Part shown: positions 12,258-60,770 of the stretch, piece after piece
Layout: each line of letters opens with the position of its first letter
Numbering within the stretch: the first letter of the stretch is position 1
Assembly (NCBI RefSeq): GCF_018905915.1
Contig: NZ_CP064782.1
Coordinates: forward strand, 1,922,001-1,986,000
Direction: 5' to 3'
Origin: Azospira inquinata
GTDB taxonomy: Bacteria > Pseudomonadota > Gammaproteobacteria > Burkholderiales > Rhodocyclaceae
DNA length: 64,000 bases
Translations under genes and position numbers: made by a program
The notes under the pieces: generated by a model
Seen by the model: the letters and a program-made list of their open reading frames with translations, nothing else
Told to the model about the DNA's origin: nothing
The model's database searches: none

Positions 12258-13193
12258 TTACCAGAGGCGGCTGCCGAATTCCTGACAATAGCGCTGGGCC
12301 AGGGAATCCCGGGTGAAATGGTGGTTCTGGGGCCCGGCGCAGGCGATTTTCAGGGCACCCAGCAGGGAGGCCAGCCGGCCGGTCTGATCCCAGTCCATGC
12401 CCTGTTCAATGCCGTACAGCAGACCGGCCCGGTAGGCGTCGCCGCAACCCGTGGGGTCCAGCAGGGCTTCCGCCTTGGCGCTGGGAATGACCAGCCTTTG
12501 CCCGCCGTGGTAAATGTGGGAGCCGTCTCCCCCCAGGGTGACGATCAAGGCGTCCACCCGGGTGGCTAGCTGGTCCAGGGACAGGCCGGTGCGTTCGCAG
12601 AGCAGCTTGGCCTCGTAATCGTTGAAGGTGGCGTAGGTGGCCTGATCCAGGAAGGTCAGCAACTCTTCTCCGGAGAACATGGGCATGCCCTGACCCGGAT
12701 CGAAGATGAAGGGAATGCCGCATTCGGCGAATTGCTGGGCGTGGCCGATCATGCCGTCCCGGCCGTCCGGCGCCACAATGCCCAGGCGCACCCCATCTTC
12801 CGCCGTGACCTTGAGCAGGTGGGAATAGGTCATGGCCCCTGGGTGGAAGGCGGTGATCTGGTTGTCGTCCAGGTCCGTGGTGATGAAGGCCTGGGCGGTG
12901 AAGCTGTCGTCCAGGCGGCGCACATGGCGGCGATTCAGGCCCAGCTCGTCCAGCCGTTGCAGATAGGCATCCCCATCCTGGCCCACGGTGGCCATGATCA
13001 GGGGCTCACCCCCGAGCAGCTTGAGGCTGTAGGCGATGTTGCCGGCGCAGCCGCCGAATTCCCGGCGCAGTTCGGGCACCAGGAAGGAGACGTTAAGGAT
13101 GTGGATCTGTTCCGGCAGAATGTGGTTCTTGAAACGGTCCGGAAAGACCATGATGTTGTCGTAGGCGACGGAGCCGCAGATCAGGGCGCTCAT
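12258..13193 (-). CDS. PfkB-family carbohydrate/nucleoside kinase (adenosine kinase-like)
   Basis: A ribokinase-fold kinase of 311 aa. The N-terminal signature FGGCAGNIAYSLKLLGG and the C-terminal catalytic signature DPTGCGDAYRAGLLYG are both present; the catalytic Asp sits in GCGD, where most PfkB proteins have GAGD. The overall form resembles bacterial proteins annotated as adenosine kinases, but the substrate cannot be assigned. A TATAAT box at 13225-13230 could be its own promoter. It lies 80 bases downstream of the terminator that ends the structured RNA region and 24 bases upstream of the lipoprotein gene. Confidence 0.88.
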   Translation of the reverse strand: MSALICGSVAYDNIMVFPDRFKNHILPEQIHILNVSFLVPELRREFGGCAGNIAYSLKLLGGEPLIMATVGQDGDAYLQRLDELGLNRRHVRRLDDSFTAQAFITTDLDDNQITAFHPGAMTYSHLLKVTAEDGVRLGIVAPDGRDGMIGHAQQFAECGIPFIFDPGQGMPMFSGEELLTFLDQATYATFNDYEAKLLCERTGLSLDQLATRVDALIVTLGGDGSHIYHGGQRLVIPSAKAEALLDPTGCGDAYRAGLLYGIEQGMDWDQTGRLASLLGALKIACAGPQNHHFTRDSLAQRYCQEFGSRLW

Positions 13194-13224
13194 GGGAGAA
13201 AAGGGGAAGGGATGAAAGCTGGAG

Positions 13225-13230
13225 ATTATA
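13225..13230 (-). promoter_or_regulatory. possible -10 box for the PfkB kinase gene
   Basis: A perfect TATAAT on the minus strand, preceded by GG, stands 32 bases before the kinase ATG. No convincing -35 is found 17 bases upstream (GC-rich). If used, the kinase is transcribed independently of the structured RNA upstream. Confidence 0.4.
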
Positions 13231-13272
13231 CCTGCCCCGGCTTCTTGGGCGGTGTTGGCGGGGGATGGGGAT

Positions 13273-13299
13273 AAAAAACGAGGGGCCGATTGGCCCCTC
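13273..13299 (-). terminator. intrinsic terminator ending a minus-strand transcript
   Basis: The stem GAGGGGCC with loop AATC and partner GGCCCCTC is followed on the minus strand by GTTTTTTATCC, a textbook U-tract. On the plus strand the same hairpin has no U-run. The only sequence upstream of it on the minus strand is the non-coding stretch 13300-13640, so it appears to end that transcript rather than a protein gene. Confidence 0.88.
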
Positions 13300-13634
13300 C
13301 AAATCGATCAAGGAATGGGAAGCTCCTCAACTCACCCGCTCGCTTGTTTCCTGCTTGCCAAGAAAAGGCTGCCGTCCGTCAGAAGTGGGATGCTCCGCCC
13401 GGACTTGAAGTGGGCGGCTCTGACGGGTGTCGAAGGGGAAGAAAGGCCTTCGACGGGAAAGGGTGACGGCGACCGGAGGGCGCCTAGCGCCAAGATGCTC
13501 CGGGAACGGCCAGGGAGAAGGTGCCCTAAGGGCCTGGTCCTGATGGCCGTCATTGCTGGAAGAGGGGAAGGGTTTAAAAGTAGAACCGGAAAGCTTCCGA
13601 TCCCTGCCGGTTTGGGCTTCCCCTCAAAAATCAT
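13273..13634 (-). ncRNA. candidate structured non-coding RNA, about 360 nt, unassigned
   Basis: This gene-free stretch forms a complete minus-strand transcription unit: promoter at 13642-13670, predicted start near 13634 and terminator at 13273-13299. Five perfect outer stems follow each other. Their paired arms (plus-strand positions) are 13562-13570/13617-13625, 13506-13512/13544-13550, 13473-13478/13498-13503, 13429-13436/13447-13454 and 13376-13383/13419-13426. Several enclose inner stems, such as 13395-13400/13412-13417 and 13479-13483/13487-13491. Three loops are C/U-rich on the minus strand (ACCUUCUCCC, CCUUUCUUCCC, ACUUCAAGUCC), which could pair with ribosome binding sites. I find no tmRNA tag or tRNA-like ends and no RNase P core signature. 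A 100-codon frame within it (ATG at 13634) has no ribosome binding site and looks non-coding. It could instead be a long regulatory leader of the PfkB gene. Confidence 0.6.
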
Positions 13635-13641
13635 TGTTATC

Positions 13642-13670
13642 AATATAATTTATATAAATATATAATGCAA
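13642..13670 (-). promoter_or_regulatory. sigma-70-type promoter for the structured RNA
   Basis: On the minus strand TTGCAT (13670-13665) and TATATT (13647-13642) are separated by exactly 17 bases, inside a 50-base A/T-only-like tract that stands out sharply from the GC-rich surroundings. The predicted start is near 13634. The same tract (TATAAT at 13641-13646 and near 13659 on the plus strand) could also drive the divergent marR gene. Confidence 0.65.
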
Positions 13671-13752
13671 GCTTTACCTTTTCCGCCCCTGGGCGCCGGG
13701 GGACTTGCCCGCCAGCGGGCCGGCCCCGGGCGACGGAGCGGAAGCTGCGCCC

Positions 13753-14253
13753 ATGGCGTTTGTGGAGTTTGGTTTGACAGAAGAAGACAAGCAGCAACTA
13801 CCCCTTCAGGTATTGAAGAAATTTCGCCTCATCTTTGGCTCGGTGCGTCAGCATTTCCGCCAGGTGGAGCATTCCTGCGGGGTGTCCGGCTCCCAGCTGT
13901 GGCTGTTGCAGGAAGTGGTCCATACCCCGGGGGTGGGCATTTCCGAATTGGCGGAGCGCCTTTCCATTCACCAGTCCACCTGCAGTCAGCTGGTGGAAAA
14001 GCTGGTGGCCCGGGGCTTTGTGCGCAAGGAGCGCAGCCAGGCGGACCTGCGTCGGGTGGGGCTGGTGCCCGGCCCGGCGGCAGAAGCCACCCTGGCCCAG
14101 GTGCCCGGCCCGGTGGAAGGCATTTTGCCGGAAGCCCTGCTGGCCTTGCCGGACGCCACCTTGAACCGGCTCGACGCCTCCCTTTCCGAGGTCATCGGCC
14201 AGCTACGGATGCGGGACGACAAGTTTGCGGATAAACCTTTGGCGGATTTGTGA
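13753..14253 (+). CDS. MarR-family transcriptional regulator
   Basis: A winged-helix regulator of 166 aa. The central part reads as a MarR DNA-binding domain: SQLWLLQEVVHTPGVGISEL, then LAERLSIHQSTCSQLVEKL (recognition helix) and GFVRKERSQADLRRVGL (wing). I chose the ATG at 13753 with GGAAG 8 bases upstream; the longer frame adds a Pro/Gly/Ala-rich stretch. It is followed 2 bases later by an OmpA-like lipoprotein, which may be its target or simply a cotranscribed partner. The AT-rich region upstream is a likely operator/promoter shared with the divergent structured RNA. Confidence 0.85.
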   Translation: MAFVEFGLTEEDKQQLPLQVLKKFRLIFGSVRQHFRQVEHSCGVSGSQLWLLQEVVHTPGVGISELAERLSIHQSTCSQLVEKLVARGFVRKERSQADLRRVGLVPGPAAEATLAQVPGPVEGILPEALLALPDATLNRLDASLSEVIGQLRMRDDKFADKPLADL

Positions 14254-14255
14254 CC

Positions 14256-14807
14256 ATGACTATCAATCTCAGCCGGTCCTGCCGGTGTTTTGCCCTGGCG
14301 GCCTTAAGCGGGCTGCTGCTCCTCACCGGGGGCTGTGCCACCCTGGGTAGTGCTCCCGCCGGGGAGGATCAGGCCCAGGCGGATGACGACGGAACTGATG
14401 CCGGTGTATTGCCCACCAAGGCGTCCCCCAAGCGCGCCCGCATTACCAAGGGGGGGGTGGCAACAGCGGCGGTGGACCCTAGCCGGAGTATCTTTTTCGC
14501 CAGCGATTCCTCCCGGGTGCCCAATAGCGCAGCGCCCCTGCTGGACGAGGTGGCGGACCAGTTGAAGGGGGATCGGCACAAGAATGTGCTCCTGGTGGCC
14601 CATACGGATGACCAGGGCAGCCCGGAATTCTGTGTGGCCCTGGCTGAGCGCCGGGCCAGCGCCGTGGCCTCCGAATTGGTGAAGCGGGGAGTGCGCTCCG
14701 CCCAAATTCAAAAAATGCCCGTGGGCAGTGAGGGGGCCTCCCCCACCTGCCGCAACGAAACCTGCCTCCAGCAGGAGCGTCGGGTGGAAGTGCGCCTCAT
14801 CGAATAG
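14256..14807 (+). CDS. OmpA-like domain lipoprotein
   Basis: A 183-aa lipoprotein with a lipobox (LLTGGC) near residue 28, a low-complexity linker, then a C-terminal OmpA-like peptidoglycan-binding domain. That domain has SIFFASDSSRVPNSAAPLLD, LLVAHTDDQGSPEFCVALAE and RRASAVASELVKRG. It probably anchors the outer membrane to peptidoglycan, like Pal. I chose the ATG at 14256, 9 bases after GGCGGA; a GTG at 14250 overlapping marR is possible but too close to that site. Several Cys residues (PTCRNETCLQQ) near the C-terminus could form a disulfide. Confidence 0.85.
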   Translation: MTINLSRSCRCFALAALSGLLLLTGGCATLGSAPAGEDQAQADDDGTDAGVLPTKASPKRARITKGGVATAAVDPSRSIFFASDSSRVPNSAAPLLDEVADQLKGDRHKNVLLVAHTDDQGSPEFCVALAERRASAVASELVKRGVRSAQIQKMPVGSEGASPTCRNETCLQQERRVEVRLIE

Positions 14808-16710: not shown

Positions 16711-17954
<1,244 letters not shown>

Positions 17955-17958
<4 letters not shown>

Positions 17959-58473: not shown

Positions 58474-58835
58474 GTAGAAAGCTCTGTTCTTACGTCGTTC
58501 GTGAATCTTTAACGTCTAATTAGCGAGGTATGGGCTCCGGCCTGGGATAAGCTCTTCCCCCGTTTTTTCGACTCCTCTCCTGACCGGGAAACCCCGTTGT
58601 AGCGTTGGCTACGGCGGGGTTTTTCTTTTTGGGGAGTGGAAGCGGCGGACTGGCGTGGTGCTGCGTTTTTCCCGCTAGCGTTTGCTTTGCCGTTCCTGAG
58701 TAAAGCGGTGGGATAACGCCAGGGCTTTTCCACCGGCTGTCGGGAAAGCGGTTTGTGAAAGGGCATGGACATTCCAGAACCGGAGGGGGGCCTATCCTTG
58801 GGGGGGCGCGGCTCGGGAAGGGAATGGCCCGGTCC
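58474..58835. other. gene-free interval between ychF and the diguanylate cyclase
   Basis: The 362 bases contain a terminator at 58590-58627 and no open frame with a convincing start, codon pattern or family resemblance. The remainder, including the segment 58640-58835, shows no tRNA, repeat or promoter that I can support. Confidence 0.6.
58590..58627 (+). terminator. intrinsic terminator after ychF
   Basis: The stem ACCCCGTTGTAGC-gttg-GCTACGGCGGGGT is followed by TTTTTCTTTTT. Two GU wobbles occur mid-stem. It lies 116 bases after ychF on the plus strand. Confidence 0.9.
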
Positions 58836-60770
58836 TTAGTGGCTGTTTTGATTTTCTTCCGGGGCTCCCTCCGGTCCCTCGGAATCCCCGTCTTCGTGAA
58901 AGGCCCGGGTCTGCTGGCCGCCCCGTTGTTTGCTGGCGTACATGGCGAAATCGGCCCGGTTCAGGAGGGTTTCGCTGTTTTCTCCGTGGTCCGGGTAGAG
59001 GCTGATGCCGATACTGGCGCCCACCTGGTATTGGTGCTGGTCGTGGAGCACGGGCATGTCGGTGATCTGGAGTATTTTTTCCGCCACGATTTCCGCTTCC
59101 CCTAACTCCCGGATTTCCGGCAGGAGAATGACGAATTCGTCCCCTCCCAGGCGAGCCACCGTGTCCATGCCCCGCACCGCATTGCGCAGGCGCTGGGCCA
59201 GGGTTTCCAGGACCCGGTCTCCGGCAGCGTGGCCGTAGCGGTCATTCACCTGTTTGAACCGATCCAGGTCCAAGAGCAGCAGGGCTACCTTGTGTTCCTT
59301 GCGGCGAGCGGTGAAGATGGCCTGATCCAGCCGGTCCGCCAGCAGGCGCCGGTTGGGCAGGCCGGTGAGGGTGTCGTGGTAGGCCTGGTGCCGGTATTTG
59401 GCCTCGGTCTGGACCCGGGTGGTGATGTCGGAGACGGTGCCGTGGTAGCCCTGGAAATGCCCATCCCCGTCCAAAACCGGGTTGCCGCTGGAACATAGCC
59501 AGCGGAAGCTGCCATCCATGCCCTTCATCTGGTAGATAAAATTCCGGAACGGCTCGTGGCGCTCCAGGCGCTGGCGATGCTTGTCCCAGGCCGCTTCCGC
59601 AATGCCCCGCAGGCCCCGGATTTCCCAGTCCGCCTTGCCCAGGAAGCGGGGGGTGCCCAGGTGGTCCAGCAAGTCCTGAGCCCCTTCCAGGGTGGTGTAG
59701 CGGAACTGGCCATCCTGTTCCCAATAGAGGTCGGAGGAGAGGGCGATCAGATCCCGCAGGCGCTGCTGGGAGCGGGCCAGTTCCTCCTGATTGCGGCGCC
59801 GCTCCGTAACGTCCGAGACCACCCAGACCGTGCCCAGTTCCGGGGCTTCCGGAGCTACCAGGCGGCCCGATACTTCGGCCCAGAAGCGGCTACCGTCCTT
59901 GCGTTTGAGCTCCATTTCCCCATGGAAGGGGCGGCGTTCCGTGCCTATGGCGGTCCGGGCGGCTTCGTCCAGTTGGTGCCAGTCTTCCGTTTCCGGTAGC
60001 CATTCCCAGGGGGGCATTCCCTTCAGCTCCCCCGGCTCATAACCCAGCATCTGGGCAAAGCGGGGGTTACTTTTTACCGTGTGATGGGGGGCCGGGCGCA
60101 GAAGGAGAATGCCTTCCCCGGCGGACTCAAAAATCACCCGCTGCTGGCGCAGTAAATCCTGGGTCAGCCGATGGTGGGCGAAGGCTTGCAGGAGCCGGTG
60201 GTGCTGGCGGGTGAAGGCCCAGGCCAGGAGGGCGCCGAGGACGGCACTGCCCACCAGAATGAGCCAGGCCCCCGCCGAATACAGGAGGGCGATGCGCAGG
60301 GCCAGGGGCAGGAACAGGGCGGCCATGAAGGCCGTGTAGGCGGGGGCGCAGCCGAATAGGGGAAAGGCGTTGATCAGGGCAAGGCAGCTGGCGATGCCCA
60401 GGGCCAGGAGCATCTGGGTCGGTGGGGTCAGGCCCAGGGGCAGCCAAGCCAGGGCGGACCAGGCCAGTCCCTGAAAGCCCAGGCTCAGGGCGGAGATAGC
60501 CTGCCAGCTTCCATGGGCTTCTCCCGAGCAGCGTAGGCGAAAACGGAGGGACAACAGGGCATGGACGCTGACACTCAGCCCGGCGCTCACCAGGGGCCAG
60601 AGCCAGGCCCGGGACTGGCCTTCCAGGGCCAGGGCGAAGGCCGTGGCTACCCCCAGGAACAGCATCAGGATCAGGGAGATGGGCATGCCGCTGTAGAGCA
60701 GGCTGAGTCCGTCTTCCCGGGCTTGCTGGAGCCGGGGATGGGTGGGGGGGCGATGGCGGGCTGGGTGCAT
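58836..60770 (-). CDS. membrane PAS-GGDEF diguanylate cyclase
   Basis: A 644-aa protein with six predicted N-terminal membrane helices (residues about 25-190), then two PAS/PAC modules (LRPAPHHTVKSNPRFAQML and GHFQGYHGTVSDITTRVQTE among them) and a C-terminal GGDEF domain with an intact motif (542-546). An RGMD inhibition site lies five residues before it, implying product feedback. There is no EAL. Start at ATG 60770; the longer frame extends across the divergent gluQRS region. It is divergent from gluQRS with an 80-base gap. Confidence 0.9.
   Translation of the reverse strand: MHPARHRPPTHPRLQQAREDGLSLLYSGMPISLILMLFLGVATAFALALEGQSRAWLWPLVSAGLSVSVHALLSLRFRLRCSGEAHGSWQAISALSLGFQGLAWSALAWLPLGLTPPTQMLLALGIASCLALINAFPLFGCAPAYTAFMAALFLPLALRIALLYSAGAWLILVGSAVLGALLAWAFTRQHHRLLQAFAHHRLTQDLLRQQRVIFESAGEGILLLRPAPHHTVKSNPRFAQMLGYEPGELKGMPPWEWLPETEDWHQLDEAARTAIGTERRPFHGEMELKRKDGSRFWAEVSGRLVAPEAPELGTVWVVSDVTERRRNQEELARSQQRLRDLIALSSDLYWEQDGQFRYTTLEGAQDLLDHLGTPRFLGKADWEIRGLRGIAEAAWDKHRQRLERHEPFRNFIYQMKGMDGSFRWLCSSGNPVLDGDGHFQGYHGTVSDITTRVQTEAKYRHQAYHDTLTGLPNRRLLADRLDQAIFTARRKEHKVALLLLDLDRFKQVNDRYGHAAGDRVLETLAQRLRNAVRGMDTVARLGGDEFVILLPEIRELGEAEIVAEKILQITDMPVLHDQHQYQVGASIGISLYPDHGENSETLLNRADFAMYASKQRGGQQTRAFHEDGDSEGPEGAPEENQNSH

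Follow-up and report, generated by a model that had tools for sequence, protein, structure and literature searches.

We have found a candidate non-coding RNA of about 360 nt between a pfkB-family kinase gene (minus strand) and a divergent MarR-family gene (plus strand) in a 64-kb window, that is, the whole stretch of DNA analysed here, bases 1922001-1986000 of a one-contig genome of 3.28 Mb. Our best reading, to which we give even chances, is that of a species-specific, stand-alone RNA that acts in trans and is controlled by MarR, in an arrangement like that of OxyR and OxyS; by species-specific we mean not found in the genomes searched, which sample the family rather than exhaust it. To judge from the sequence, the locus combines a promoter, a terminator, a bidirectional layout that recurs beside MarR and the lack of a gene signal; that the RNA is made and acts in trans, that MarR binds and that a ligand releases it, we infer. 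In the proposed scheme transcription of the RNA would run leftward, beginning at a promoter that shares bases with that of the divergent marR and stopping at the RNA's own terminator ahead of pfkB. MarR, sitting on an ATTG-N4-CAAT repeat, would repress marR (together with the OmpA-domain gene) and the RNA alike, and a MarR ligand or a stress signal would release marR-ompA and the RNA together, the RNA then serving as a trans-acting regulator in the way of OxyS next to OxyR. The features are collected in Table 1.

Table 1. Features of the marR-pfkB region (window coordinates) and short putative RNAs of related loci (locus coordinates)
Feature	Position	Strand	Details
marR, MarR-family regulator gene	13705..14253	+	Pfam MarR_2 (9.2e-13) and MarR (1.3e-9)
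OmpA-domain protein gene	14250..14807	+	Pfam OmpA (2.8e-14)
pfkB-family kinase gene	12258..13193	-	Separate unit, own TATAAT at 13225-13230
Promoter of the candidate RNA	13642..13670	-	TTGCAT 13665-13670, 17-nt spacer, TATATT 13642-13647; read directly
Predicted marR promoter	13637..13666	+	TTATCA-18-TATAAT; pattern scan; overlaps the RNA promoter
ATTG-N4-CAAT inverted repeat, possible MarR operator	13632..13643		Covers the presumed start of the RNA
Putative non-coding RNA, about 360 nt	13273..13636	-	Promoter, terminator, strand-specific folding, no coding signal
Hairpin P1	13562..13625	-	GAGGGGAAG / CTTCCCCTC, with inner stem
Branched element P2	13464..13552	-	TGACGGC / GCCGTCA around inner hairpins
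Hairpin P3	13429..13454	-	GTCGAAGG / CCTTCGAC, loop CCTTTCTTCC
Hairpin P4	13376..13426	-	CCGTCAGA / TCTGACGG, inner GCCGCC / GGGCGG
Intrinsic terminator	13273..13299	-	GC-rich stem 13280-13299, T run 13273-13278 (six T)
Short MarR-divergent RNAs	L163:2043-2122, L188:1381-1462, L196:1466-1544, L162:2022-2096, L165:2022-2093
Short MarR-divergent RNAs, continued	L189:610-683, L197:555-634, L209:1472-1547, L192:617-688, L215:610-682

The ATG at 13753 is the better candidate for the start of marR, and most of the homologues listed align from about residue 23-34. The OmpA-domain product reads as lipoprotein-like, and its gene is probably in an operon with marR. In a genome of the same genus (G002), a putative glycosyltransferase gene, assigned by reading its sequence and lying beyond ompA in the window, stands directly before pfkB, so that the RNA, marR and ompA make up one extra block in the window genome; it looks like a block gained in this genome or lost in G002. 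Elsewhere in the window, positions 16711-17958 (minus strand) hold proline/alanine-rich repeats (APAPAP, TAPTAP) inside an ORF of 415 aa.

The initial annotation had proposed a sigma-70-type promoter, TTGCAT-17-TATATT, on the minus strand, and it is present at the positions given in Table 1; transcription would start near 13633-13636. The pattern scan, which applies a stricter rule, omits this promoter and lists the plus-strand marR promoter alone, and a second plus-strand TATAAT for marR can be read directly at 13644-13649. The annotation had further described a complete transcription unit for an unassigned RNA. The recurring promoter, the terminator, the strand-specific folding and the lack of a gene signal all support a stand-alone unit outside Rfam. 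The annotation overlooked the overlap with the divergent MarR promoter. This overlap is the best clue to function: as in sRNAs divergent from a regulator, the RNA appears to have its own promoter within the regulator's control region, with the repeat to which MarR would bind lying over the presumed start. Comparison with 394 other genomes of the family, in which two candidates were scored per genome, returned the promoter stretch as the sole part of the region with matches at E <= 1e-3. They lie beside MarR homologues in G156 (query 9-41, 91%, E 8e-6) and G033 (query 11-48, 87%, E 9e-6), and weaker matches next to MarR occur in G251 (E 0.007) and G399 (E 0.14). The match in G314 was rejected as MarR-adjacent because it sits on another contig than the MarR gene of that genome.

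MarR homologues were collected from 395 genomes drawn from the larger family. We analysed 96 loci from among the matches and counted the 61, window included, with at least 50% identity to the window MarR. Nine loose patterns, written after viewing some of these sequences, picked out a promoter segment in 53 of the 61 (window included); the pattern-negative loci (L158, L160, L194, L195, L206, L213, L215 and L220) were left out, L215 later matching a covariance model of short RNAs (R2, see below), and L142 was left out of the promoter and terminator counts as the same place as L187. An exact ATTG-N4/5-CAAT is found in 23 of these 53 segments (window included) against 0.2 expected from mononucleotide shuffles, for a motif first noticed in these same sequences and in loci of related genomes that are not independent. 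In 22 of these 23 segments the repeat is placed on the -10 box or beyond it, a position suited to a repressor. The gene order behind MarR was examined in 34 loci, 33 of them distinct, and some loci with little sequence on that side were left out; in 12 of the 33, window included (11/32 among the others), the same strand carries an OmpA relative after MarR.

Ten of the 53 loci, window included, carry a strict terminator within 390 nt on the divergent strand, with 0.15 expected from shuffles, and none of the 53 carries one on the opposite strand. By genus code, six of the ten belong to g102 and one each to g1, g2, g23 and g76. The terminator lies at a distance of 361 in the window (L112), 108 in L117, 200 in L161, and 71-79 in L162, L163, L188, L189, L196, L197 and L209; L165, L146 and L147 have terminator-like ends missed by the strict rule. 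In the remaining 43 loci the strict rule finds no terminator behind the promoter, and in several MarR loci an apparent ordinary gene follows the divergent promoter, for example an OmpA-related one in L113, L114 and L142. The terminators after the MarR-divergent promoter (10/53) offer a clue to the way new RNAs emerge next to a regulator that stays in place.

Within the window, the terminator with six T that the annotation described was recovered by the terminator scan and is the only terminator-like site in 12500-14500, a region for which the same scan averages 1.6 in shuffles. The claim that the 360 bases before it hold no credible gene also stood. A minus-strand ORF of 103 aa with a TTG start covers most of the RNA stretch, which speaks for a small protein gene inside it, and a second ORF, of 137 aa, lies on the plus strand. 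In neither does GC content vary over the codon positions as it does in the genes on either side (0.55/0.59/0.64 in the 103-aa ORF vs 0.66/0.42/0.85 in pfkB), neither has a Pfam match at E <= 0.001, and a search of about 5.8 billion proteins left 0 of 26 and 30 word-sharing candidates, for the minus-strand and plus-strand ORF respectively, at E <= 0.001. A small protein gene is therefore very improbable. As in a regulator-divergent sRNA, the unit appears to carry its own intrinsic terminator and no internal gene.

The RNA strand of the whole unit folds at -154 to -156 kcal/mol, with a z of -4.38 to -4.79 when the terminator is included (0 of 100 shuffles as good) and of -3.23 without it, while the opposite strand gives z values of -0.95 and -0.06. 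Over 124 background windows of 340 nt the mean z is -0.30 and the minimum -4.19; none reaches -4.79, and two have z <= -3.5, that is, below the unit without its terminator. Among 180-nt tiles (30 shuffles each), 8 of 710 have z <= -3.5. The core of the RNA (13376-13555) has z -3.66 on the RNA strand and -2.96 on the other (30 shuffles), and -4.26 for 13376-13554 with 200 shuffles. The z of real sequence thus has a heavier tail than shuffles suggest, so that we grade the structure minus the terminator as unusual, at about the top 1-3% of the window background. For DNA so rich in GC it stands out without being one of a kind. Plus-strand tiles at 59221-59400, 58501-58680, 17461-17640 and 13861-14040 have z values of -4.3 to -5.4, beyond that of the RNA core; the last of them lies within marR.

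Inside the unit, the annotation had counted five consecutive perfect stems. Five Watson-Crick stems of at least 7 pairs within 100 nt are indeed present, but two of them exclude each other, their 5' arms (13546-13552 and 13544-13550) having bases in common. In P2 the stem TGACGGC / GCCGTCA is mutually exclusive with a shorter hairpin, ACGGCCA / TGGCCGT, and the shorter one is preferred in the full-length fold. Shuffles average 2.2 perfect stems of at least 7 pairs and reach five in 36 of 500 cases. Three stems have at least 8 pairs, against a shuffle mean of 0.54; three are reached in 9/500 shuffles and in 6 of 186 genomic tiles. Hairpin P3 alone (13428-13455) folds with z -4.60, with 0 of 200 shuffles as good.

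Three C/U-rich loops had been noted in this structure, with the suggestion that they might pair with Shine-Dalgarno sequences. The stretches exist, and the ensemble leaves CCTTTCTTCC and ACCCTTTCCC unpaired, as would suit a sponge or regulator whose C/U-rich loops cap ribosome sites. Their composition, by contrast, is not enriched: the unpaired pyrimidine fraction is 0.66 vs 0.65 in shuffles, a value attained or surpassed by 15 of 60 of them. When six loops were paired with 57 start regions, taken from putative window genes picked by ORF length and codon GC, the mean pairing energy was matched or beaten by 5, 8, 11, 24, 30 and 40 of 40 shuffled loops. With loops at composition level that pair no better than shuffled ones with the start regions of window genes, the anti-Shine-Dalgarno idea lacks support, and we give it hardly any credence. 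Staphylococcal RNAIII and sX13-type sRNAs are multi-hairpin RNAs with C-rich loops; the window RNA resembles them in having many hairpins and C/U-rich stretches, and differs in that its C/U content is only at composition level.

The annotation had also left the RNA unassigned and proposed an Rfam scan: no family of release 15 matches the RNA at gathering or relaxed scores. At the gathering score the sole match in the whole window is a tRNA elsewhere, and a relaxed scan of 13200-13720 gave at best E 0.08 and 18.7 bits (gathering 58.6), on the other strand. Eleven related loci gave no Rfam match either. Searches for a homologue of the RNA body came up empty in 60 relatives, in the 394 other family genomes, in the collected loci and, by covariance model, in 296 family genomes, and neither plasmids nor phages showed DNA similarity to it; the marR protein had no match in plasmids at E <= 1e-20. 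A single-sequence covariance model of 13376-13554 (R1) scores 226.7 bits at its own locus. In the 296 other genomes, 13 had a match at E <= 1, the best reaching 24.1 bits (E 0.001 per genome); we regard these matches as chance because each of the best four (L229-L232) falls within a long open frame whose GC pattern is coding-like. Many genomes also have weak BLAST matches to short pieces of the body (about 17-70 nt); 291 of 395 give some match at E <= 1. One such match turns up in six genomes of genus g6 (query 358-380, E 0.10-0.23), and in G007 it is located in an open frame of coding-like pattern. These weak matches were likewise counted as chance. The genera of G156 (2 genomes) and G033 (1 genome) contain no closer locus. 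With no body homologue in the genomes searched, covariation speaks neither for nor against the structure, and the body shows no sign of selection. Among the literature titles and abstract openings listed, none reports this RNA or a MarR-divergent sRNA in this family.

The lack of a body homologue bears on the main rival to a MarR-controlled RNA, a relic unit in which promoter and operator were kept for marR, the terminator was left by a lost divergent gene, and the filler between them is functionless, its folding reflecting GC-rich composition. This is possible, though we would wager against it. Besides the absence of body homologues in the genomes searched and loops that behave as shuffles do, it draws on loci where an OmpA-related gene is divergent to marR behind a like promoter: L113 in G033, L114 in G023 and L142/L187 in G156, with opposite-strand OmpA matches at E 4e-13, 2e-11 and 6e-12. 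At a second MarR locus of G156 (L186, G156:C1:1729000-1735000) the divergent OmpA-related gene looks degraded, the promoter is kept, and behind the gene comes a terminator whose stem is similar. Against the relic, the body has no detectable likeness to the divergent genes of L113, L114, L142 and L186 (local scores 26-32, within the range of 60 shuffles each), and the folding of the whole unit is strand-specific and better than in 100 of 100 shuffles. A degraded lipoprotein gene was considered as the origin of the RNA body and dropped, no similarity being detected. A local score of 41 in L147 (best of 60 shuffles 38; 14 loci tried) was not counted as similarity, since it falls beyond the divergent RNA of L147, in the apparent next gene.

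On the other side of the RNA, the annotation had weighed a long leader of pfkB and disfavoured it on account of the gene's own TATAAT, which we read directly at the position in Table 1. An exact TATAAT lies within 70 nt of pfkB in 21 of 78 relatives and in 0/78 in a control window (78 of the 80 named loci, L041 and L077 left out). Among the pfkB loci L001-L111, marR is present only in L001 and L002, both the window's own. The other 109, at least five of which are the same place entered twice, yielded no marR within their flanks, which extend 1.5-4 kb or stop short where a contig ends, so that pfkB looks like a recent neighbour. Conservation of the RNA beside pfkB was not found. A 5' leader or attenuator, in which the terminator of the RNA decides read-through into the next gene, finds a possible precedent in L165, L189, L197 and L209, where a divergent RNA of about 75 nt has a terminator-like stem and T run abutting the downstream ATG of a frame that reads as antiporter-like (L165 failing the strict terminator rule). 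For the window, this explanation is improbable: pfkB has its own TATAAT, exact in 21 of the 78 relatives with pfkB and without an exact match in the other 57, marR is missing from the other pfkB flanks, and the model of the short RNAs (R2) has no match in the window at E <= 2.

For the preferred reading, a MarR-controlled RNA acting in trans, the nearest parallel is the oxyS-oxyR pair of E. coli, a non-coding RNA divergent from the gene of a transcription regulator (PMC7967276), as at the window locus. OxyR is of the LysR type, whereas the regulator here is of the MarR type; the sequences of OxyS and the window RNA were compared through the Rfam scan alone, and the likeness appears to be one of arrangement. 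OxyS is about 110 nt long, the window RNA about 360 nt. In SgrR/SgrS and other regulator-adjacent pairs, too, an sRNA is divergent next to its own regulator, and the regulator family differs from that of the window locus. NfiS of Pseudomonas stutzeri, a species-specific regulatory non-coding RNA with experimental support (PMC6761216), shares with the window RNA the apparent restriction to one species; the latter is known from sequence. Provided that it is expressed, the window RNA would count as a candidate for a regulatory RNA under MarR control, in bacteria for which the titles and abstract openings listed hold no such description. The shared promoter leaves MarR control open to direct test.

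Related genera carry shorter putative RNAs at the same place. Ten loci of three genus codes (g102, g76 and g19) have MarR-divergent RNAs of 72-82 nt (Table 1), composed of a CCTTTTCGAC(G/A)AGG-type hairpin and, mostly, a G5-6/C5-6 terminator. Eight of them (L162, L163, L165, L188, L189, L196, L197 and L209) share with the window RNA the type of promoter next to a MarR homologue, a start free of genes and a terminator-like end; they differ in being four to five times shorter and in sequence, and R2 fails on the window. Seven of the ten loci were scanned against Rfam and gave no match, and a two-sided change was seen at only one of ten predicted pairs. In 39 sources R2 picked up L192 and L215, each at the homologous position, and L117 weakly (E 2); over 199 family genomes, which may include none of the known members, it found no match, an outcome that is uninformative. 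A wider reading, which we consider doubtful, is that in this family one recurring MarR operator-promoter repeatedly drives short terminated RNAs whose bodies (about 75, 108, 200 and 360 nt) have been swapped between genera. The window RNA would be the longest of them and would act in trans on behalf of a stress switch in which MarR is linked to envelope proteins of the OmpA type. The 72-82 nt set may be a more testable lead than the window RNA.

Two further observations concern the ends of these divergent transcripts. In L165, L189, L209 and L197 the T run reaches the ATG of the frame that translates as antiporter-like, directly or within a base, a junction that looks like an attenuator or an overlap of terminator and start. 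L146 (1343-1430 and onward) and L147 (2030-2187) carry MarR-divergent leaders that both have TCCGGTGACCATCCTGCA(A/C)AGGAGAGCTTT before a large terminator-like hairpin, and in L146 the ATG of the next frame follows directly after that hairpin.
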